Of a DNA stretch of 44,243 bases, positions 20,683-31,674 are shown piece by piece. Position 1 is the stretch's first letter. Every line of letters begins with the position of its first letter. Under the pieces are notes generated by a model. That model was not told the DNA's origin, made no database searches, and was given only the letters and a program-made list of their open reading frames with translations. The translations under genes and the position numbers were made by a program. Source of the stretch: an uncultured Pelagibacteraceae bacterium (lineage in GTDB: Bacteria > Pseudomonadota > Alphaproteobacteria > Pelagibacterales > Pelagibacteraceae); the NCBI GenBank assembly GCA_902582735.1, contig CACHTB010000007.1, positions 1-44,243 of the forward strand, read 5' to 3'.

Positions 20683-21480
20683 ATGAATAAAAACTTTAAT
20701 TATAAAATTTACTTTAATTTTCTTAATCTTTTAGCAAAACAACTTACAAAATACTATTATTCGAAATTAGACAAACCTTTTAAGATAAGTAATAAATTAA
20801 AAGGAAAAGGCTATGATCCGGTAACAACTTCAGACAAAGCTTTTGAGAGATTCATTAGAAAGAAAATTTTAGATCGATTTCCAGATCACCAAATCATAGG
20901 TGAGGAGTATGGGTTCAAGAAAACAAAAAGTGATTTTTCATGGGTAATTGATCCAATTGATGGAACAAGATCTTTTGTAACCGGTAATCCAACTTGGAGT
21001 AATTTAATATCATTAAATTATAAAGGAACTCCTATGGTAGGACTTGCAAACTTTCCTAAACTAAAAAAGTATTATCTAAATAAAGATGAAAAAAATTCAT
21101 ATTTATTTGAAAATGGAAAAAAATTTAAATTAAATGTTAATTCAAAAGTGTCATTAAAAAATGCAAAGATTGCAGCAGCATTCCATGGTTACTTATCTTT
21201 TAATAAACAAAAAAAAATTCTAAAGTTTATTAAGATAGTTAATTTTCCATGTTTTGATGCACTAACTTACGCACAATTAGCAGAAGGAAGATTAGATGTT
21301 GTAGTTCAATGTGCAAATAAAATCTGGGACGTTCACGCAATAATACCTATTATAAATGCTGCAGGAGGAATACTTACTACATGGAAAAATGAAAATGGCA
21401 AACTTGCTGGAAATATTTTGGCATCAAGTAATAAATTAAATCATAAAAAAATTTTAAAATTGCTTAATCCAGCAACATGA
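20683..21480 (+). CDS. Inositol monophosphatase-family phosphatase (histidinol-phosphatase HisN-like)
   Basis: 265 aa; PVTTSDKAFERFIRKKI, IIGEEYG, WVIDPIDGTRSFVTGNPTW, IWDVHAIIPIINAAGGILTTW. Confidence 0.88.
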   Translation: MNKNFNYKIYFNFLNLLAKQLTKYYYSKLDKPFKISNKLKGKGYDPVTTSDKAFERFIRKKILDRFPDHQIIGEEYGFKKTKSDFSWVIDPIDGTRSFVTGNPTWSNLISLNYKGTPMVGLANFPKLKKYYLNKDEKNSYLFENGKKFKLNVNSKVSLKNAKIAAAFHGYLSFNKQKKILKFIKIVNFPCFDALTYAQLAEGRLDVVVQCANKIWDVHAIIPIINAAGGILTTWKNENGKLAGNILASSNKLNHKKILKLLNPAT

Positions 21481-22199
21481 AAAATATAATTGTTCTTCAA
21501 CATATCAAAATAGAAGACCCAGGATATATTAAAGATCTTATGATTAGCGATGGAATAAATTTAACTACAATAGAATTAGATGAAGGTGATAAAATTCCAG
21601 AAGATCTTGATAAGTTTGATGCAATGTTTTGTATGGGTGGTCCCATGGATACGTGGATGGAAAATGAGTACCCTTGGCTTATTGAAGAAAAAAAAAAAAT
21701 TAAAGAATTTGTTATTGATTTAAAAAAACCATACTTAGGCTTTTGTTTAGGTTGTCAACTTCTTGGTGAAGTCATTGGAGGGAAAGTTGTAAAATCTTCA
21801 AAACCTGAAATTGGTGTGTTAGATATTGATTTTTTAGAAAATAAAAAAAAAGATCAGTTATTTAGTAATTTTCCCAATAAAATTAAATCACTACAGTGGC
21901 ATTCCTATGAAGTTCAAGATTTAGAAAATATACAATCTGTTACTCTAATAGCTTCATCACCTGAAACAAAATATCAAATTTTTAAATTTCATGAACACGC
22001 ATACGGAATTCAATTTCATATTGAAATCAAAGATACTACAGTAAGTGATTGGGGGTGTGTGCCCGAATATAAATCTGCTCTTGAAAGCCAGTTAGGAAAA
22101 GGTGCACTTGAGAAATTTGATATTGATGCCAAAATGAAAATGTCCTCAATGAATAAATATTCAACAATTCTTTATAACAATTTTAAGAAATTAATCTGA
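21477..22199 (+). CDS. Class I glutamine amidotransferase (GMP synthase-like)
   Basis: 240 aa; CMGGPMDTW, LGFCLGCQLLGEVIGG nucleophile motif, YGIQFHIEI. Confidence 0.88.
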   Translation: MKNIIVLQHIKIEDPGYIKDLMISDGINLTTIELDEGDKIPEDLDKFDAMFCMGGPMDTWMENEYPWLIEEKKKIKEFVIDLKKPYLGFCLGCQLLGEVIGGKVVKSSKPEIGVLDIDFLENKKKDQLFSNFPNKIKSLQWHSYEVQDLENIQSVTLIASSPETKYQIFKFHEHAYGIQFHIEIKDTTVSDWGCVPEYKSALESQLGKGALEKFDIDAKMKMSSMNKYSTILYNNFKKLI

Positions 22200-22260
22200 G
22201 AATTTCCTTTTTTTTAACATTTTATTAAGTTAGTTTTTTAAGCATAATCAAGGAGGTAAT

Positions 22261-22653
22261 ATGGCAATATTTAACATGATAGAGGAAAGTGAAGCTAAAG
22301 GAAGAGTAAAAGAAATATTTGAGGATATTAAACAAAAAAGAAACATAAAATCTGTAAACAATTTTTGGAAAATGTTAGCTAATGAGCCAGAAACTTTAGA
22401 GAGAACTTGGAATTCATTGCAGCAAGTAATGAAAAAAGGTGCTCTAGATGAGATGACAAAAGAATTAATTTATATTGCTGTTTCAATTACAAATAGCTGT
22501 GAGTATTGCATAAAATCCCACAGTTCTGCTGCAGTTAAGAAAGGAGCATCAAAAGATATGCTTGCTGAACTTATCGCAGTAGTTGGAATGGCAAATGAAA
22601 CAAATAAATTGGTTGAGTCATATCAAGTTAAAGTAGACGAAATTTATGAATGA
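22261..22653 (+). CDS. AhpD-like / carboxymuconolactone decarboxylase-family protein
   Basis: 130 aa; SCEYCIKSHSSAAVKKGAS (CxxC); strong AGGAGG ribosome-binding site. Confidence 0.85.
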   Translation: MAIFNMIEESEAKGRVKEIFEDIKQKRNIKSVNNFWKMLANEPETLERTWNSLQQVMKKGALDEMTKELIYIAVSITNSCEYCIKSHSSAAVKKGASKDMLAELIAVVGMANETNKLVESYQVKVDEIYE

Positions 22654-23203
22654 TAGAGCTCAAGCAATCTTAGATTTCTGGTTCGATGATCTAATAGTTG
22701 AAAAAAGATTTAAAAAAGATGAAAAATTTGATCAGTTAATTAGAGATAAATTTGAAGAAGATTACAAGAAGGCAATTTCGAATGAATATGATGACTGGCA
22801 AGATGAGCCTTTAACTTGTTTAGCGTTAATTATTTTATTGGATCAGTTTTCGAGAAACCTTTATAGAAATGATAAAAAGTCTTTTGAATACGATTTTAAA
22901 GCAAGATTGATTGTAAATGATGCTGTTTATAATGGATATCTTGATCAAATGGACGAATATCAAAGATTTTTTATGTTACTTCCATATATTCATAGTGAAG
23001 AAATTATTGATCACGATAGAGCGTATAAGTTATTAACAAATTATCTATCAAATCATCCAAATTTTTTAGAAATAAAAAAATTTTGGAAAGATCATACAGC
23101 GGTAATTAAAAGATTTCATAGATATCCTCACAGAAATAAAATGTTAGGAAGAAGATCTACAGCAGAGGAAATTGAATTTCTAAATCAACCCAATTCTTCA
23201 TGA
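22646..23203 (+). CDS. DUF924-family protein
   Basis: 185 aa; AILDFWFDD, ALIILLDQFSRNLYRND, FMLLPYIHSE, FHRYPHRNKMLGR. Confidence 0.9.
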   Translation: MNDRAQAILDFWFDDLIVEKRFKKDEKFDQLIRDKFEEDYKKAISNEYDDWQDEPLTCLALIILLDQFSRNLYRNDKKSFEYDFKARLIVNDAVYNGYLDQMDEYQRFFMLLPYIHSEEIIDHDRAYKLLTNYLSNHPNFLEIKKFWKDHTAVIKRFHRYPHRNKMLGRRSTAEEIEFLNQPNSS

Positions 23204-23206
23204 TAA

Positions 23207-23542
23207 CTATTTAGTATTACCTAAGAGATTTACAATTAAAACACCTGTAATTATTAAAAGTAAACCAAGGATGGTTGTAAAATTAGGAATTTGATTAAAT
23301 TTTAAAACTCCTACTACACTTGTTGCTATAATACACAATCCTGCAAATGATGCGTAAGTAACTCCAACAGAAATTGATTTCATTACAAGTGAAAGTGTAA
23401 ACATACAGCCAACAATTGTAATTGCAGTTAAAATACTTGGAATTAATAGAGTAAAACCTTGAGCGCTTTTTGCAAAAGCATTGGACGCTGTTCCTAAAAT
23501 TACAGCAACAATTAAATATACATATGCATTTAAATTACTCAT
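23207..23542 (-). CDS. Small multidrug resistance (EmrE/QacE)-family protein, divergent
   Basis: 111 aa, 4 TM; aligns without gaps to the EmrE N-terminus (NAYVYLIVAVILGTASNAFAKSAQGFT); TGVLIVNLLGNTK. Confidence 0.82.
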   Translation of the reverse strand: MSNLNAYVYLIVAVILGTASNAFAKSAQGFTLLIPSILTAITIVGCMFTLSLVMKSISVGVTYASFAGLCIIATSVVGVLKFNQIPNFTTILGLLLIITGVLIVNLLGNTK

Positions 23543-24131
23543 TATTTTTTGACCAATTTATTGCATCTTCCATTCTATCATCTCCCCAAAATATTTCATT
23601 ACCCACAACAAAAGAAGGACTTCCAAATATTTTATGTGATCTTGCACTTTCAGTGTTTCCTAAATATTGATTTTCAATCTCTTGGGAATTTGCATTATTT
23701 ACAATTTTTTCTTTATCCAGACTAAGCTCATTACATATCTCAGAAATATTTGGCTCTGTAGCTGGTTCTTTTCCGTCCTGGAACCACCTCTTGTAAGTCA
23801 ATCTTACATAATCTATTCCCCAGCCTTCATTTAATCCTAATATTGCAAGTTTATTTGCTAAATCAAATTCACTTAATGGATAAGGCACAGGAGTTTTTGC
23901 AAAAAAACCATAACTTTTTGCTCTTCTCTCTATATCTCTCCACATATAATCAACTTTATTTTGTTTGTCTTTTGGAAAAGGTATGTTGTTCATTTCCTTC
24001 ATTATTGCTCTCACACTAAATGGTACCCAATTAAATTTTACATTTAATTTCTTTTCAACATCTAATACTCTAGCAACTGTTAGATAGGTATAAGTACTTC
24101 CAATTGAAAAATAAAAATCAACTTTTTTCAT
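23535..24131 (-). CDS. 2-hydroxychromene-2-carboxylate isomerase / DsbA-like kappa-GST family protein
   Basis: 198 aa; DFYFSIGSTYTYLTVARV, FPKDK, IFGSPSFVVGNEIFWGDDRME. Confidence 0.88.
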   Translation of the reverse strand: MKKVDFYFSIGSTYTYLTVARVLDVEKKLNVKFNWVPFSVRAIMKEMNNIPFPKDKQNKVDYMWRDIERRAKSYGFFAKTPVPYPLSEFDLANKLAILGLNEGWGIDYVRLTYKRWFQDGKEPATEPNISEICNELSLDKEKIVNNANSQEIENQYLGNTESARSHKIFGSPSFVVGNEIFWGDDRMEDAINWSKNNE

Positions 24132-24147
24132 TACTTATATTAACCTA

Positions 24148-24369
24148 TTATTTTGTGATTTTATCTACAATTTTTTTTACTATAGGAGCAACAATTGAGG
24201 TTGCTATCATTGCAACAGGAAAACTCACAGACCATGCAGTTATAAATCTTTTAAAATAATCTTTGTCAAATCCAGTGTTAATATAGGTTATTAGGAGAGT
24301 CATCATGAAACTCATCCCACATCCCATTAAAACAATGAATAATAGGTTTGAGTATTTTTTTGAAAACAA
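24148..24369 (-). CDS. Small membrane protein, DUF2798-like
   Basis: 73 aa, two TM; GCGMSFMMTLLITYINTGF...WSVSFPVAMIATSIVAPIVKKIVD. Confidence 0.7.
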   Translation of the reverse strand: MFSKKYSNLLFIVLMGCGMSFMMTLLITYINTGFDKDYFKRFITAWSVSFPVAMIATSIVAPIVKKIVDKITK

Positions 24370-24395
24370 AGTTTAAATTCTAATTTTTAAATATT

Positions 24396-24716
24396 TTATT
24401 TGTTCATCGGGGTTGCACCAGTTTCAAGTGCAAACACTTTGCCATCCTTAAATTTAAAAACAGCCATTACTGCTTCTTTGTTTCCATCATTAAATGTTAC
24501 AAATGCGTGTTCAACACCAATTTCATCATTTTCATAAATAACTCTAACTTTATCTCTATTGATATCTCCACTCATTGCCCATTTTACTACATCGTCTTTT
24601 TTTAAAACAGTACCTGATTTATGCATCGTAAAAGTATAATCGTCGTGAATTATATCTCTTAATGCTGCCTCATCTTTATCCTCCATGGCTTTATTATATT
24701 TAGCTAAAATTGACAT
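24396..24716 (-). CDS. NTF2/SnoaL-like small protein (copy A)
   Basis: 106 aa; resembles 26358-26687 (shared IIHDDY, YENDEIG, DGNKEA, KFKDGK, LETGAT); RBS-like AGGAG upstream. Confidence 0.75.
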   Translation of the reverse strand: MSILAKYNKAMEDKDEAALRDIIHDDYTFTMHKSGTVLKKDDVVKWAMSGDINRDKVRVIYENDEIGVEHAFVTFNDGNKEAVMAVFKFKDGKVFALETGATPMNK

Positions 24717-24735
24717 TTTTATTCTCCTTTATTTT

Positions 24736-25059
24736 TTATTTTCCTGGTTTAACAACACTATTAGCTGCATTAGCTGCATTCGTAAATGCTTTGTTATAAT
24801 CAATTACCTCATGAACCATTAAATCTTCCATTAGGCCAGAATTTTTAAAAGCTATTTTTAAGGCAACAGCTTGTTCATATTCTCCTTCCACGCAAGAAAT
24901 TACATCAAATCTACCTCTTACCCACTCGTAAGAAATAAGTTTTAAACCAGCGGCCTCTGTTGCCTTTTTTGTAGAAGCGAATCTGTCTGCAGTTGGTTCA
25001 TTCTGCATTCTCTTCATTAACTCTCCACTTATTTTACCTATTAAATAAAATTTTGCCAT
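24736..25059 (-). CDS. GYD-domain small protein
   Basis: 107 aa; KATEAAGLKLISYEWVRGRFDVISCVEGEYEQAVALKIAFKNSG fits the GYD family pattern. Confidence 0.75.
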   Translation of the reverse strand: MAKFYLIGKISGELMKRMQNEPTADRFASTKKATEAAGLKLISYEWVRGRFDVISCVEGEYEQAVALKIAFKNSGLMEDLMVHEVIDYNKAFTNAANAANSVVKPGK

Positions 25060-25347
25060 TTATTCTCCTTTAATTATTATTCCATTTGATAAAGCGTTGT
25101 CTAAACGGATTTTTTTTATTGGTTTGTATTCTTCAGATTTATACCACTCTTGAGCTTTTTCATAACTAGGAAATTTGATTACGATAGTTCTTGGGTGTTC
25201 CCAATTTCCCTCTATTAATTCAAAATCTCCACCTCTTACAATATATTCTGCTCCGAATTTCTCTGCAATTGGTTTTACTTTTTCAATATATTCTTTGTAA
25301 TTTTCAGGGTTTGTAATTTTAATATTAAAAATTACGTACCCAGTCAT
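25060..25347 (-). CDS. DUF1330-family small protein
   Basis: GYVIFNIKITNPENYKEYIEKVKPIAEKFGAEYIVRGG...IVIKFPSYEKAQEWYKSEEYKPI; ATG at 25347 preferred over the upstream TTG. Confidence 0.85.
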   Translation of the reverse strand: MTGYVIFNIKITNPENYKEYIEKVKPIAEKFGAEYIVRGGDFELIEGNWEHPRTIVIKFPSYEKAQEWYKSEEYKPIKKIRLDNALSNGIIIKGE

Positions 25348-25395
25348 TATCTGAAATTTCAATATAATGAATTAACAATTTCAATATTTTTTTTT

Positions 25396-25686
25396 TTAAA
25401 GATCCACTTTAGATAAATCATACAACTGAGCATTCTCTACACATTCCGCATAGATAGCTTTTGCTGTAGGATTTTTTCCAGTTACAAAATCTTTCATTCC
25501 TTCTTCATTATGAACAGAAACTTTAAATAAAATACCACTTTTGTCTGGTATCATAGCTCCAACAGTTTTTTCTGGATATGCAACACTTTTTCTAACACCC
25601 ATACCTTCATCTGATTGCATCCATCCCATGAAAGTTTCTAATTTACCTTCTTTTATTTTAAGATGTACTAACATTTCCTTTTCCAT
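25396..25686 (-). CDS. Small dimeric alpha/beta-barrel-like (monooxygenase-like) protein, uncharacterised
   Basis: 96 aa; MEKEMLVHLKIKEGKLETFMGWMQ...; RBS AGGAGG upstream. Confidence 0.65.
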   Translation of the reverse strand: MEKEMLVHLKIKEGKLETFMGWMQSDEGMGVRKSVAYPEKTVGAMIPDKSGILFKVSVHNEEGMKDFVTGKNPTAKAIYAECVENAQLYDLSKVDL

Positions 25687-25710
25687 TTATAGCCTCCTTT
25701 TTTTGTTAAT

Positions 25711-25980
25711 TTAATCTGAGCAAATGTTCATTACTGTAGTCTCTTGTTTATGGCCAGATTTTTCAATTACTCTCGCATTCTCTGTATTCTGCATAAATTT
25801 TTGCATAGTGTCTGCTGCTGGTGTTTCCATTACAATATGTACCTTATTTGGATTTTCTAATTCATGACCAACGTAAATGATTTTGATGCCTGCCGCTTCT
25901 CTTGGACCAGAGTGTTCATCAAACATTTTTTTCCAGTGAGTCCAGTCTTTTACCTCAAAATTTCCAACCATTTTTACCAT
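25711..25980 (-). CDS. Small dimeric alpha/beta-barrel-like protein, uncharacterised
   Basis: MVKMVGNFEVKDWTHWKKMFDEHSGPREAAGIKIIYVGHELENPNKVHIVMETPAADTMQKFM. Internal ATG at 25980 chosen because the longer ORF overlaps the upstream cupin. Confidence 0.65.
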   Translation of the reverse strand: MVKMVGNFEVKDWTHWKKMFDEHSGPREAAGIKIIYVGHELENPNKVHIVMETPAADTMQKFMQNTENARVIEKSGHKQETTVMNICSD

Positions 25981-25981
25981 T

Positions 25982-26332
25982 TTACTCTCCCCACACACCA
26001 GCAAATTCATATGCCTCAACTGGTACATCGCCAACTACCCAAGCATCATGCCCTGGGGTTACAGAATAAGAGTCCCCTGCTTTGTATACTACCTCTGTTC
26101 CATCATCGTGTTTTGCGCAAACAGAGCCCTTTGTGATTACTCCAATATGGTTCGCTTGACAACTCTCAGTTCCAATGTGTGGTTTTACATCTGTAGACCA
26201 TTTCCATCCTGGTTTTAAATGTAATCTTACTACTCTTTGGCCACCTACATTTACTGCTTCAATTTTAGCATTATTAAATTTATCAACTACTTCATCTGCT
26301 TTATCAAAAGTTTTAACTTCAATACTATTCAT
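25982..26332 (-). CDS. Cupin-domain protein
   Basis: 116 aa; HLKPGWKWSTDVKPHIG...HIGVITKGSVCAKHDDGTEVVYKAGDSYSVTPGHDAWVVGD. Confidence 0.82.
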   Translation of the reverse strand: MNSIEVKTFDKADEVVDKFNNAKIEAVNVGGQRVVRLHLKPGWKWSTDVKPHIGTESCQANHIGVITKGSVCAKHDDGTEVVYKAGDSYSVTPGHDAWVVGDVPVEAYEFAGVWGE

Positions 26333-26357
26333 ATCAACCCCTTAGGTTAGTTTATAA

Positions 26358-26687
26358 TTATTTTGGAATTTTGGTTGCGCCTGTTTCGAGTTCAATGATT
26401 TTACCATCTTTAAATTTCCAACAACACATTAAAGCCTCTTTATTTCCATCTTCGGCATAAGTAACAATAGAATGATCAAAACCTATTTCATCGTTTTCAT
26501 ATAAAATTCTATATTTATCAACTTTCATGAAACCTTTGTTAATTGCTTCAATCATGCTTGTTTTTCCACTTTCAGTATATGCCCCCTGTAGATGAGAATA
26601 CCTCTTATAATCATCATGGATAATCTCAGCTGCTGTTGCACCATCTTTTTCCACAATTGCTTTATTAAGTTTTTCTAAAATTGACAT
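26358..26687 (-). CDS. NTF2/SnoaL-like small protein (copy B)
   Basis: 109 aa; paralogous to 24396-24716 by shared motif blocks. Confidence 0.75.
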   Translation of the reverse strand: MSILEKLNKAIVEKDGATAAEIIHDDYKRYSHLQGAYTESGKTSMIEAINKGFMKVDKYRILYENDEIGFDHSIVTYAEDGNKEALMCCWKFKDGKIIELETGATKIPK

Positions 26688-26695
26688 ATTATTGT

Positions 26696-27079
26696 TTATT
26701 TCTTCATTGCATTGAACATGCTAAGCGTATCATCAAAGGTCATCATAACTTTAGTTTTTCCTTCATCGCTGACTTCAAAATAATGACCAAACAAAGTGTC
26801 CAAGTTGTCAGCTGTTGCATGTACTCTAACAAATACTTTATTACCTTCGCTGATCATGTCTAAAATTTTTAAATGAAAGTTTGGCCATGTAGCTGGAATT
26901 TTTGACATCGCACCCATCATAGCTTGTTTACCCTTATGAACCCCTGACAATGGATGAACACCTTCCTTACCTGGAAATGTCCATACAATATTATCATCGA
27001 TCATATCATTAAAAAAAGTTTCCATATCACCTTTACCGAAAAGCTCGTATGCTTTCCTCGTTTGCTCTTTTACGTCCAT
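26696..27079 (-). CDS. SnoaL-like / NTF2-fold protein
   Basis: 127 aa; KAYELFGKGDMETFFNDMIDDNIVWTFPG...PLSGVHKGKQAMMGAM. Confidence 0.8.
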   Translation of the reverse strand: MDVKEQTRKAYELFGKGDMETFFNDMIDDNIVWTFPGKEGVHPLSGVHKGKQAMMGAMSKIPATWPNFHLKILDMISEGNKVFVRVHATADNLDTLFGHYFEVSDEGKTKVMMTFDDTLSMFNAMKK

Positions 27080-27108
27080 AATATATTCCTTTCTAAAATA
27101 ATTATTTA

Positions 27109-27585
27109 TTAATAAGTATATTCTCCACTCATTTGGTTCATTGAATGAGCCATTCCACTTTTGCCTTTAAGATTTTGTCTGCTTGAAAATCCTGTTCCTG
27201 AAATGTTTTCATATTTTCCAGTTCCACCAATAATGATGAAATCTCCAGAACCACCAACGCCTCCAGTTCCTTTACCTTTATAATTTATAAATACTTTTTC
27301 TCCATCATTTAGATAAAATGTACACATTCCCGTTTCATCTTCAAACTTACCTGCAGTTAAAGTAAGACCTCCAATGCAATGCATAGTAGATTTATCAAAT
27401 ATACTTCCATCTTCTTTGTCTGAAAGCCCAGCATTACCATCATAAGTTATACTCATATTGCCATTACCAGCATTCATAACATTCATTTCCCATGAACCCA
27501 TTCCACTTGCATTAAACTTTCCTGTCTCAGCTAACAAGTTAGAAGTAAATAGTGTAAAAAAAGTTATTATTATTGTTTTTTTCAT
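27109..27585 (-). CDS. Secreted beta-rich protein with allene-oxide-cyclase/dirigent-like GGTGKYENISGTG motif
   Basis: Signal peptide MKKTIIITFFTLFTSNLLA-ET at the internal ATG at 27585, preceded by an AGGAG-like RBS. Confidence 0.65.
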   Translation of the reverse strand: MKKTIIITFFTLFTSNLLAETGKFNASGMGSWEMNVMNAGNGNMSITYDGNAGLSDKEDGSIFDKSTMHCIGGLTLTAGKFEDETGMCTFYLNDGEKVFINYKGKGTGGVGGSGDFIIIGGTGKYENISGTGFSSRQNLKGKSGMAHSMNQMSGEYTY

Positions 27586-27595
27586 AGTTTTCTCC

Positions 27596-27880
27596 TTACA
27601 TTTTTGCAAAATCCATTGTTTGTGAACATTCCTCAGAGACTGTGTCAAAAAAATTATTCATATCTCCAAGTTGATCAATAATTGCTTGTGGACTTTCGGC
27701 TTGCCACTTACAAAATACCTTCATCGAGTCGCCTGCACCCATCATTGTCATATGACATACAGCTTTTTCTCCAGTTACTCCTTTTTTTAAATCCTCAGGG
27801 GATGTTGAACTTACAACTTCATGAAATTTTTTTTTCATCTCCTCAGACTTAAATATATGTGTTGCTAAATAATCTTTCAT
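27596..27880 (-). CDS. Small uncharacterised protein
   Basis: 94 aa; RBS GGAGGA upstream; MKDYLATHIFKSEEMKKKFHEVVSSTSPEDLKKG.... Confidence 0.65.
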   Translation of the reverse strand: MKDYLATHIFKSEEMKKKFHEVVSSTSPEDLKKGVTGEKAVCHMTMMGAGDSMKVFCKWQAESPQAIIDQLGDMNNFFDTVSEECSQTMDFAKM

Positions 27881-27977
27881 TATAGTCCTCCATTTAAGCT
27901 TAATAATCTTACATTTAAACTTAGTTAATTATAATCAATAATTGTAAACTTAATATGACAATACTGGTATGTGATTT

Positions 27978-28979
27978 TTAGATCCAGCTAGGAGTAGGGA
28001 GACCTTTTTCTTGCAAAAATTTTTTATTAAACATCTTAGAGTTGTATTTATCTGATTTGTCGCAGAGAATTGTTACAATAGTTTTCCCTGGACCGATTAA
28101 TTTCCCAAGTCTAATTGCTCCAGCAATATTTACACCACAGCTAGTGCCTAAACTTAATCCCTCTTCTTTTATTAAGTTATAAAGTAAAGGCAAAGACTCA
28201 TGGTCATCAATTGAAAATGCACCATCTATTTTTGCTTCGGCAAAATTTGCTGTTACTCTGCTAGAGCCAATACCTTCAGTTATTGAACCACCCTCAGATT
28301 TTAACTCACCATTTTCAATGAAATTGTATAAGGCAGAACCTGCCGGATCAGATAAATATATTTTAATATCTTTGTTTTTTTCTTTCAAATAACCACTTAT
28401 CCCTCCAATTGTTCCACCTGTGCCTGATGCACAAACAAATCCATCTACCTTACCTTCTGTTTGATCCCATATTTCAGGTCCAGTTGTTTCATAATGACCT
28501 CTAGCATTTGCAGTATTGTCAAATTGGTTTGCCCAAACTACTCCATAATTATTTGAATTTTTTAATTCTTCTGCAAGTCTACCTGCAACTTTTACATAAT
28601 TGCCATCATCACTGTAAGGTTTTGGTGATACTAACCTTAAATCTGCACCGATATTTATTAAAGTATCTTTTTTTTCTTGTGTTTGATTATCATTCATTAC
28701 AATTGTTGTTTTATAACCTAAAGAATTTCCCAGAAGACATAAACCTATACCAGTATTACCTGCTGTTCCTTCAACAATCATTCCACCTTTTGAAATTAAT
28801 TTTTTTTCTTCAGCATCTTTTATGAGTGCCAAAGCCGCTCTGTCTTTTACAGATCCTCCTGGGTTTAAATATTCTGCTTTTCCATAAATATTACATCCAG
28901 TAATCTCTGAAGCTGCTTTTAATTTTATTAAAGGGGTATTACCAATTGACTGTAAAAAATTATCTTTGCTATTAATCAT
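27978..28979 (-). CDS. Cysteine synthase / Cds1-like PLP enzyme
   Basis: [63 protein letters not shown] at 28979 overlaps the 3' end of the upstream cysE-like gene. Confidence 0.9.
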
Positions 28980-29553
28980 TATTTTTTTCTGAATTATCAT
29001 TTTCGACAGCATAAGGTTTAAATTCTTCTGTAGCAGTTCCAACATTCTTTGCTGGTATTCCTATCATTACAGCATTCTCCTCAACATTTTTTGTTACAAC
29101 AGCATTTGCTCCAATTTTTGAATTTTTTCCTACTACTACAGGACCTAATATTTGTGCACCAGATCCAACGACTACATTATCCATTAAGGTAGGATGTCTT
29201 TTTATATTTCTTTGATTATTAGAATTTATGCTTGGAGATATACCTCCTAAAGTTACCATATGATACATAGTTACATTATCACCAATTTCAGATGTTTCAC
29301 CTATCACAACTCCCATCCCATGATCTATAAATAGATTTTTACCAATCTTTGCACCAGGATGAATTTCAATACCAGTTAGGAATCTTGAAAACTGCGAAAT
29401 AATTCTCGCAATTAAATTAAATTTAGCTACTGAAAAAAAATGAGCCAATCTATGAAAAAATACAGCTTTAACACCTGGATAAGTCAATATTAAACTTAAT
29501 TTGGATTTCGCTGCTGGATCTCTATCAATAATTGATTGTAAAAAGTCACTCAT
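28972..29553 (-). CDS. cysE: Serine O-acetyltransferase
   Basis: 193 aa; [44 protein letters not shown], hexapeptide repeats. Confidence 0.93.
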
Positions 29554-29664
29554 TAGTCTTCCTATATAGTTATTAAAAATTGAATTTAAAGTTGATCAAT
29601 CTCTTAAAAGTTTGCTTCATAAAACAATTTTTCATATAATAATTTTATAATAAGGAGAGAAACA

Positions 29665-30324
29665 ATGTTAAAAATAAATAGTATGTGTCCTGATTTTCAG
29701 GCTAAAACTACAGAGGGAGATATCTCTTTTCACGAGTGGTTAGGTGACAGCTGGGGTGTATTATTTTCACATCCAAAAGATTTTACACCAGTTTGTACTA
29801 CTGAACTTGGAGCTTTAGGTTTAATGAAAGATGAGTTCGACAAAAGAAACGTGAAAGTGATAGGTCTTAGTGTAGACGGAGTTGATGACCATAATAAATG
29901 GTTAGAAGATATAAAAGATGTGTCAGGTTCAAAACCAAACTATCCAATAATTGCGGACGAAGACCTAAAAGTTGCTAAATTATTTAATATGTTGGAAGGT
30001 GATGCAGGAACAACATCTATGGGTAGAACTGCTGTTGATAATGAAACAGTTAGAACTATTTTTGTAATAAGACCTGATAAAAGAATTGGTTTATATCTTA
30101 CTTACCCAATGGCAACAGGACGAAACTTTTTGGAAATTTTGAGAGCAATAGATTCAATGCAATTAACAGCAAAACATAAAGTAGCTACTCCTGCTAATTG
30201 GAAAAAAGGTGAAGATGTAGTTATTTTACCAGCTGTTAAAGATGATGAAGCGAAAAAAATATATCCAAATGGATGGGAGACGGTTAAACCATATTTAAGG
30301 AAGGTTCCAGATCCTTCTAAATAA
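29665..30324 (+). CDS. 1-Cys peroxiredoxin (Prx6-like)
   Basis: 219 aa; SHPKDFTPVCTTELGALGLM, PIIADEDLKVAKLFNML, VRTIFVIRPDKRIGLYLTYPMATGRNFLEILR. Confidence 0.95.
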   Translation: MLKINSMCPDFQAKTTEGDISFHEWLGDSWGVLFSHPKDFTPVCTTELGALGLMKDEFDKRNVKVIGLSVDGVDDHNKWLEDIKDVSGSKPNYPIIADEDLKVAKLFNMLEGDAGTTSMGRTAVDNETVRTIFVIRPDKRIGLYLTYPMATGRNFLEILRAIDSMQLTAKHKVATPANWKKGEDVVILPAVKDDEAKKIYPNGWETVKPYLRKVPDPSK

Positions 30325-30325
30325 T

Positions 30326-30979
30326 TTGGATAAGAATATTTTAAACCAACAATCTCAGCATTGGGAGACTAATTTCTCAAATAAGCCTGAGATGTTTGGT
30401 TTAGATCAAAGTTATTCAGCTGAAAAAACCCTACCCATATTAAAAGAGAACAATTTTTCAAACATTATCGAACTTGGAGCTGGATTAGGTAGAGACACAA
30501 TATTTTTTGCAAAAAATTCAATCAAGGTTACTGCGCTTGATTATAGTCAAAATGGTATATCAATAATTGACAAAAAAATTAAACAATTAAATTTATATTC
30601 ATTTATCCGTACTATGAAGTTTGATGTGAGGAGTAGCTTACCTTTTAAAGATAACACGGTAGAAGTTTGTTATTCTCATATGCTTTATTGTATGGCTCTA
30701 ACAAATCTTGAATTAATAAATTTAAATAATGAGATTAAAAGAATTCTTAAACCTGGAGGTTTGAATATTTATACTGTTAGAAATACAGAAGATGGAGATT
30801 TCAAAAAAGGGATTCATAGGGGTGAAGATTTATTTGAAATCGATGGATTTATTATTCATTTTTTTTCTGAGAATAAAATAAATAGTCTTCTAGATGGTTT
30901 TAAAAATTTATTTATTGAAAAATTTGATGAAGGAAAGTTTCCTAGAAAGTTATATTTAGTTTGTAATAAAAAAATTTAG
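30326..30979 (+). CDS. SAM-dependent methyltransferase
   Basis: 217 aa, TTG start; IIELGAGLGRDTIFFAKNSIKVTALDYS, LKPGGLNIYTVR. Confidence 0.85.
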   Translation: MDKNILNQQSQHWETNFSNKPEMFGLDQSYSAEKTLPILKENNFSNIIELGAGLGRDTIFFAKNSIKVTALDYSQNGISIIDKKIKQLNLYSFIRTMKFDVRSSLPFKDNTVEVCYSHMLYCMALTNLELINLNNEIKRILKPGGLNIYTVRNTEDGDFKKGIHRGEDLFEIDGFIIHFFSENKINSLLDGFKNLFIEKFDEGKFPRKLYLVCNKKI

Positions 30980-31674
30980 TTATTTTTGTATTTTTTCATA
31001 CATACTTGGGCCAATAAAAGATTTGGATCAATAAACAACTTAGAGTCTTTTGCTTTCTTAAAAGATTTATATGCAAATAAAGCTATAGGAAGTTCTGTAC
31101 AACCTAATATAATTTTTTTACATTTTTTTTTAATTAATTGATTAACGGCTGGTCTTAAAACTTTCTCTGCCTCTTTTACTTTACCCATTTTTACATATTT
31201 AATAGATTTGTTTACAGAGCTTGTTTGTAAATTTTTAGTTGGACTTATAAAATCATATTTTTTATCAAAATATTGATGGTAAACTTTTGTTTTCAATGTT
31301 GCTTCAGTACAAAGGATTCCTATTTTCGTATTTTTTTTACAAGTTTTTTTTGTATAATTAAAAACTTCCCTGGGCATGCTTAATAAGGGAATTTTAATTT
31401 TTTTTTGAATATCTTGATGCCAATAATGTGCAGTGTTACAAGGCATAACAATAAATTTACATTTATTTTTGGATAGCAGTTTACAACCCTTAATCAACTC
31501 ATTTAGCACATTGTAATATTTTTTTAAGTTCTCAGGTCTTTTTGGTGTATTAGACTTGTTGTAAAGAATAAACATAGGGTACTGTTGATCCAGTTTTCCT
31601 CTATATAATTTTGCAAGCTTGCTGCAAAAATCTAAACCTGCCTGCGTTCCCATTCCTCCAAGAATACCAATCAT
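30976..31674 (-). CDS. Aspartate/glutamate racemase-family protein
   Basis: 232 aa; MIGILGGMGTQAGLDF, IVMPCNTAHYW, ILGCTELPIAL. Confidence 0.9.
   Translation of the reverse strand: MIGILGGMGTQAGLDFCSKLAKLYRGKLDQQYPMFILYNKSNTPKRPENLKKYYNVLNELIKGCKLLSKNKCKFIVMPCNTAHYWHQDIQKKIKIPLLSMPREVFNYTKKTCKKNTKIGILCTEATLKTKVYHQYFDKKYDFISPTKNLQTSSVNKSIKYVKMGKVKEAEKVLRPAVNQLIKKKCKKIILGCTELPIALFAYKSFKKAKDSKLFIDPNLLLAQVCMKKYKNN

Follow-up and report, generated by a model that had tools for sequence, protein, structure and literature searches.

The locus described here raises the question of what a dense run of small genes, all on one strand, might do in the genome of a SAR11 bacterium (Pelagibacteraceae), SAR11 being the ocean's most abundant bacteria. 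The window, by which we mean the whole 44,243-nt stretch of DNA that was analyzed, contains eleven consecutive minus-strand genes at 24148-27880, and all eleven of the ORFs that the sequence-only reading had placed there were present. These genes were labeled A (at the 24148 end) to K (at the 27880 end; Table 1). Three start positions were corrected, those of the secreted protein J (27585, not 27648), the DUF3764 gene F (25980, not 26034) and the DUF1330 gene D. The near-absence of gaps was borne out, with a spacing of 0-48 nt in the run and a single larger interval of 97 nt between cysK and the first gene. Most genes also had a ribosome-binding site of their own, as had been proposed, in the form of a normally spaced GGAG- or AAGG-type motif; that of F was located within the 3' end of G. 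The spacing suggests that the genes of the run are co-transcribed. A promoter and terminator scan found promoter-like sites in the run to be no commoner than in shuffled sequence and saw no minus-strand terminator inside it, and there was no Rfam match to a riboswitch or structured RNA in the 20-32 kb region. The window has around 40 other genes of at least 100 aa, just two of which encode products of 130 aa or less (ORFs below 100 aa being left out of this count), and the concentration of small genes in the run is greater than expected by chance. Median dN/dS values in relatives, 0.08-0.49 across the eleven, show purifying selection on the run genes.

Two additional minus-strand genes were found behind A, outside the interval first described: a DSBA-family gene that starts 16 nt after A, and an SMR transporter gene that overlaps the DSBA-family gene by 8 nt. 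Since the DSBA-family gene continues the run past 24148 and the SMR gene overlaps it, the earlier statement that the run has no transporter was incorrect, as an SMR-family exporter closes it. The accompanying statement that there is no large synthase or dehydrogenase held, and domain searches of the run found neither of these enzyme types nor a ligase. From its sequence, the DSBA-family gene product was read as a putative 2-hydroxychromene-2-carboxylate (HCCA) isomerase.

Table 1. Genes of the run and its borders, in order from the cysE-cysK side (positions are those of the window).
Gene	Position	Strand	Description
cysE-cysK	27978-29553	-	Conserved left boundary of the site
K	27596-27880	-	94 aa; weak SCO4226-like match (DUF4242-type ferredoxin-like fold), E 0.011, below cut-off
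J	27109-27585	-	158 aa, secreted; modeled 8-strand allene-oxide-cyclase/dirigent-type barrel; no Pfam match
I	26696-27079	-	SnoaL_2-family NTF2-like; Pfam E 2.5e-11
H	26358-26687	-	DUF4440-type NTF2-like, below Pfam cut-off; paralogue of B
G	25982-26332	-	Single-domain cupin; Cupin_2 E 0.002, below cut-off
F	25711-25980	-	DUF3764, ferredoxin-like; E 7e-10
E	25396-25686	-	Dimeric-alpha/beta-barrel fold (model); without Pfam family
D	25060-25347	-	DUF1330; E 5e-32
C	24736-25059	-	GYD-domain-like; E 1e-5, below Pfam cut-off
B	24396-24716	-	DUF4440/SnoaL_2 NTF2-like
A	24148-24369	-	DUF2798 small membrane protein; E 4e-21
DSBA-family protein	23535-24131	-	PF01323 E 4e-27; variable member of the run
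SMR-family exporter	23207-23542	-	E 4e-14; end of the run

Domain calls and the models of E and J supported the folds that had been assigned to the run (NTF2/SnoaL, ferredoxin-like and cupin). The AlphaFold2 model of E (pLDDT 94) matched ABM, olivetolic acid cyclase and LsrG structures in Foldseek (TM 0.5-0.6, E 1.6e-4 to 1e-3) and the top matches of the J model (pLDDT 83.7) were the dirigent protein GePTS1, PloI4 and AOC2 (TM about 0.5, E 7e-5 to 1e-3). Overall, the Foldseek TM scores reach only about 0.5-0.6, at identities of about 10-19%. By fold, E would be an ABM-type dimeric alpha/beta barrel, with no Pfam sequence match, and J is predicted to be an allene-oxide-cyclase (AOC)/dirigent barrel, an assignment that was new relative to the sequence-only reading. 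The folds of the run proteins also include non-catalytic binding proteins. Profile searches matched I to 3fgy, 3ebt, TerC and IdmH, and no convincing solved-structure relatives were identified by sequence for E, J, G or H/B; the NTF2-like proteins B and H are paralogues (51% identical). The hint of oxylipin- or aromatic-type chemistry in the earlier reading gained slightly from these analyses, through the model of J.

Ligand binding without any catalytic activity is common among NTF2-like, ferredoxin-like and AOC/lipocalin-type barrels. It is conceivable on this basis that the run proteins chiefly have a non-catalytic role as carriers or sensors, binding, buffering or shuttling ligands that are hydrophobic or reactive (lipids, haem, retinoids or metals), and their small sizes, the export of several members, the cupredoxin encoded at the site in relatives and the lack of a large enzyme would all be in keeping with such a role. 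However, the nearest solved folds of the E and J models include several enzymes of proven activity (olivetolic acid cyclase, LsrG, PloI4 and AOC), and the SnoaL relatives of I, TerC and IdmH, are enzymes, which by analogy speaks against a mainly non-catalytic role. We consider the carrier or sensor role somewhat unlikely.

Related loci, 80 in total, were fetched with F as the bait, and the sample is therefore biased toward well-filled loci. In most of these the run occupied the same chromosomal position, between cysE-cysK and SMR/CMD or DUF924 genes, and a few genera of the family carry run genes elsewhere (L187 and L190). Approximately 20 small families occur at the site: dimeric alpha/beta barrels, NTF2/SnoaL proteins, cupins, the AOC/dirigent-type barrel, small membrane proteins and SMR exporters, as well as exported proteins that include a secreted cupredoxin. 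Gene order is largely conserved, and the 76 full loci had 38 different content sets. The content is more variable than that of the flanks, whose genes are nearly constant; in a subset of 39 loci there were 14 content sets in the run versus 2 in one flank and 3 in the other, although the run holds more families. Almost every locus has B and E (B in 74 of the 76 full loci), and the DSBA-family gene was found in 16 of the 76. E, one of the two most constant members, has its gene in 143 of 297 Pelagibacterales and in 57% (85/150) of the sampled near-complete genomes. Across the 76 loci, K, J and the family c13 were positively associated (phi 0.26-0.60) and c19 was anti-associated with all three; K is a recurrent family with homologues in other contexts (e.g., L127 and L252). 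One complete genome, of 1,308,759 bp, lacks the run entirely; we take it to be that of HTCC1062, and its cysK is at 764 kb. As the cysK site there holds SMR genes only, a study based on HTCC1062 could not have seen the run.

Comparison of these loci also revealed how members are lost and exchanged. The cupin gene G has been deleted repeatedly in relatives, and the cupin-less loci retain a scar of its 3' end ahead of F, in at least three forms. In one group of 47 genomes there was near-free reassortment of alleles, giving 27 haplotypes. I has three allele classes, with most pairs below 85% nucleotide identity, beside F at about 95%, and its alleles were uncorrelated with the flanks (a pairwise-identity correlation of -0.01 for I and CMD, versus 0.77 for SMR and CMD). 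This reassortment suggests exchange by recombination at the site. The members are not fully independent, because K, J and c13 are associated, C and D are co-inherited (allele correlation 0.79), and B and E are near-constant.

Scattering of the genes in relatives had been named as an outcome that would speak against a common system; instead, members of the families were found together in several lineages and in several contexts. In the SAR11 family f2 the same families lie at another chromosomal site, as c13-K-I-ABM-GYD or c13-c19-G-I, and H-c30-G-E and B-G-E clusters were found at other sites in genomes that we take to be HIMB59-like. Clusters of these families are also present in two or more additional families of Alphaproteobacteria (e.g., DUF6854-cupin-NTF2-cupin-GYD-K in L252). 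In a genome of 1.41 Mb, the chance that three more single-copy genes fall this near to the first one is roughly 7e-9. Because they cluster at other sites, in other SAR11 and in other Alphaproteobacteria, the families appear to belong together functionally, pointing to a shared chemical job.

The co-location of the same families across genomes and lineages, the single strand and short gaps, and the co-inheritance of C and D could also be explained if all members worked in a single linear pathway, whether catabolic or biosynthetic, or assembled into a single multi-protein complex. We regard this as improbable: losses and swaps occur one at a time among otherwise near-identical strains, the content sets are many (38 in 76 loci), c19 shows a negative association with K, J and c13, and no dehydrogenase, ligase or synthase lies within the run. 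The picture of one fixed pathway is thus not supported, given genes that are gained and lost singly, alleles that reassort, and the genome that lacks the entire run.

Our preferred reading, held tentatively and at a little less than even likelihood, is that the run is a polymorphic flexible genomic island, operon-like and situated beside cysE-cysK, whose genes are loosely independent small-molecule-modifying modules. Each gene would encode a small protein that needs no organic cofactor (the cupin would depend on a metal) and that has a small organic molecule of its own to bind or convert; candidate substrates would be reactive aldehydes, lactones, epoxides, quinones and other oxidized lipid or aromatic products of surface seawater. 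Some of the proteins would be located in the periplasm and most in the cytosol, and the SMR pumps could export products or parent compounds. We speculate that the members are loosely independent modules, because they come and go singly, and that they would share one theme, the remodeling or detoxification of a chemically diverse pool, rather than being obligatory steps of a pathway; the polymorphism of the run would then track local chemistry. A broader proposal, which is possible but doubtful, is that the run belongs to an undescribed modular "a la carte" system common to SAR11 and other marine Alphaproteobacteria, in which part-periplasmic, part-cytosolic cofactor-free proteins of the cyclase or isomerase type would remodel or detoxify reactive dissolved organics, and balancing selection would keep each member polymorphic.

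The side-by-side occurrence of these scaffolds resembles the cofactor-free aromatic polyketide cyclase toolkits (ABM-type, SnoaL and cupin), in that I matches TerC and IdmH and the model of E resembles WhiE-ORFI and olivetolic acid cyclase. The scaffold set, with its AOC/dirigent barrel, would accordingly suit the tailoring steps at the end of a pathway for a polyketide-like or other secondary metabolite, but sequence identity to the toolkits is low, no ketosynthase or other scaffold-forming synthase was found within 21477-31674, and the run is optional and piecemeal in a streamlined genome, making this very improbable. Least probable of all, and already disfavored, is that the hypervariable content at a fixed site and the many small, consecutive, optional genes, mostly of unknown function, represent phage defense, a toxin-antitoxin system or the cargo of a mobile element, for instance an array of integron cassettes, as ten genes tested had no PADLOC or PHROG match, the E and B/H profiles had no relatives in 2.9 million viral contigs, and losses leave internal deletion scars rather than being clean excisions. 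Beyond these nulls, just two viral contigs had a relative of the cupin (39%), and a phage origin was rejected, as was a known anti-phage defense system. Integron or repeat-mediated cassettes were likewise rejected, there being no attC-like repeat family at the gene borders, no integrase within 21477-31674 and a largely conserved gene order.

As a flexible island, the run can be compared with variable regions reported previously. Its description as a candidate undescribed system stands with respect to the open-access papers searched, in which we found no account of these families in SAR11. The SAR11 hypervariable regions HVR1-4 and "polymorphic gene indels" vary in content among close strains (Wilhelm et al. 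2007, PMC2217521), and the run shares with HVR1-4 a fixed site, variability among close strains, many genes of unknown function, and optional genes under purifying selection. However, the published HVR gene lists hold other gene numbers and functions, and, with the mapping of gene numbers being approximate, do not appear to include the run locus. Flexible genomic islands of the replacement type (Lopez-Perez et al. 2014, PMC4033161), with the HIMB59 phosphate islands (PMC10734472) among them, are similar in occupying the same genome position, in being exchanged by homologous recombination and in encoding related functions with different genes. The HIMB59 islands have recognizable functions (phosphate, phosphonate), whereas here there is an operon-like run of singly varying 70-160-aa proteins. 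The run is a source of unexplored families based on scaffolds with a known capacity for cofactor-free cyclization. Culturable lineages with and without it apparently both exist, the carrier presumably being HTCC7211 and the lineage lacking it HTCC1062, so that comparison and metabolomics are possible with existing cultures.

Eleven consecutive minus-strand ORFs were present in the window, as the sequence-only reading had claimed: in gene order K (SCO4226-like), J (secreted barrel), I (SnoaL_2), H (DUF4440-type NTF2 protein), G (cupin), F (DUF3764), E (dimeric alpha/beta barrel), D (DUF1330), C (GYD-like), B (DUF4440-type NTF2 protein) and A (DUF2798 membrane protein). Intergenic gaps were 0-48 nt and GGAG-type motifs preceded most of the ORFs; the starts of J, F and D in the mechanical ORF list had been placed too far upstream. 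Judged by the median dN/dS in relatives (0.08-0.49, a rough measure with high dS in many pairs), the run genes are real. The same reading had seen no transporter in the run, which was wrong, since an SMR exporter continues it beyond a DSBA-family gene read as 2-hydroxychromene-2-carboxylate isomerase (HCCA-like).

Features of the window at and around the run
Feature	Coordinates	Strand	Remark
Run K to A	24148-27880	-	eleven genes
DSBA-family (HCCA-like) gene	23535-24131	-	downstream continuation of run, 16-nt gap
SMR exporter	23207-23542	-	downstream continuation of run, 8-nt overlap with preceding gene
Window counterpart of G mini-ORF	25982-26332		
1-Cys peroxiredoxin gene	29665-30324		one side of site
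AhpD/CMD-family gene	22261-22653		other side of site
Gene with similar genes beyond SMR in other loci	20683-21480		

The window (31% G+C) derives from a 988-kb genome in 56 contigs that is 68% complete, and its named relatives among GTDB genomes were all Pelagibacteraceae/SAR11. In nearly all of 80 loci fetched with F as bait, the run lay downstream of cysE-cysK and was followed by SMR, then by CMD, DUF924 or a gene like that at the end of the table. The peroxiredoxin and AhpD/CMD-family genes were both kept in many loci. In one locus (L046) the run is bracketed by inverted copies of cysK (cysK...cysK-cysE), a layout that probably reflects chimera formation during single-cell amplification.

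Clustering of all ORFs gave about 20 recurrent small families at the site, those additional to the window's eleven being a second DUF3764-like protein (c13), exported proteins (c14, c19), a cupin (c23), a cupredoxin, a membrane protein (c16), c21, c30 and neighbours such as DUF952. The 76 full loci, again counted with F as bait, had 38 content sets: 16 loci carried the HCCA-like gene, 32 K and 38 G, and B and E were each present in 74. A subset of 39 loci from a single group showed 14 content sets in the run versus 2 and 3 in the two flanks; the run was also richer in families (mean 12.2 versus 5.0 and 3.3). Among 46 SAR11 loci of one group, c19 (exported, ABM-like) occupied the same run position as K, J and c13 and was negatively associated with them (phi from about -0.4 to -0.55), a pattern resembling alternative solutions.

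Alleles were also reassorted. A 47-genome group had 27 haplotypes and three allele classes of I, with most I pairs below 85% nucleotide identity and the nearby F at about 95%; pairwise identity correlated with that of the flanking gene CMD at Spearman -0.01 for I and 0.77 for SMR, and C and D alleles co-travelled (0.79). Heavy recombination is known in SAR11 (PMC7542561), and reassortment at the run is therefore expected per se; the special feature of the run is the presence or absence of single genes. Such gain and loss, one gene at a time, speaks against the members being obligatory parts of one pathway or machine.

Of 297 Pelagibacterales genomes, 143 matched the E profile; among the 150 at least 90% complete, the number was 85. 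A sample of 289 genomes spread over the class added only two more, and the B/H profile had no match among 199 further genomes drawn from the phylum. A 1,456,888-bp genome, which we take to be HTCC7211, carries c30-F-J-c14-E-K-G-B-HCCA-SMR-A. At the cysK site of six complete or near-complete genomes of the same genus without E, five retained other run families and the sixth (1,308,759 bp, presumably HTCC1062) had SMR genes only.

Clusters of these families also occurred elsewhere. Another Pelagibacterales (SAR11) family had c13-K-I-ABM-GYD and c13-c19-G-I; in 4/4 loci of this family (L127, L128, L129, L130) a conserved short-chain dehydrogenase (SDR) gene lay near the cluster and is a possible functional partner. 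In another alphaproteobacterial family, two genomes, of which one (1,410,127 bp) is assumed to be HIMB59, had H-c30-G-E and B-G-E clusters, the second (B-G-E) with an additional cluster of two SnoaL genes, ABM, a DUF3764-like protein and an exported protein. That additional cluster (L186, 6000-12000), made up of small ABM, DUF3764, SnoaL and exported barrel-like proteins, is the longer of the two and lies far from E-G-B. More distant Alphaproteobacteria had DUF6854-cupin-NTF2-cupin-GYD-K (L252), cupin G alongside a GYD-like and other small proteins (L247), and c13-(D-like)-B (L241). That the families share one theme is best supported by their repeated co-location, whatever the site; the recurring clusters speak for common regulation as well as a common theme. 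We regard the run as very probably a flexible island with a functional theme. Islands of this type are already known as SAR11 hypervariable regions (HVRs) and replacement islands; the genes listed for HVR1-4 appear not to include this cysK-side site, and no description of it was found in the open-access literature searched.

The AlphaFold2 model of E (pLDDT 94) was nearest to dimeric alpha/beta barrels of the ABM, olivetolic-acid-cyclase and LsrG types, and that of the exported J (pLDDT 84) to dirigent proteins, the cyclase PloI4 and allene oxide cyclase; I matched SnoaL-like structures, TerC and IdmH among them. With TM of about 0.5-0.6 and identity near 10-19%, no activity is transferable from these solved folds. 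Small-molecule conversion or detoxification by the run proteins is a tentative reading with slightly less than an even chance; any particular substrate class is improbable. With no organic cofactor, each member would bind or convert a small organic molecule of its own, probably a reactive one; the SMR protein would perform export, and the exported members would act outside the cytoplasm.

Loss of single genes was traceable for G. Many loci without G kept its last codons (EFAGVWGE-stop or shorter) ahead of F, and the ribosome-binding site of F sits in this terminal stretch. The remnants had three forms. The window's nearest relatives show I-scar-F; more than 20 loci have an in-frame mini-ORF of 21 codons (e.g., MASIEFKAFDKAYEFAGVWGE) in which the beginning of G is fused to its end; and in another group the remnant is shorter. 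Since these remnants of the end of G were left before F, G was lost by internal deletion in these genomes. The mini-ORF stops right at the F start, within an almost constant 91-nt gap (L038-L085), and this abutment suggests that its translation may be coupled to that of F. In one further group F followed c14 with no scar, and gain or replacement therefore happens too.
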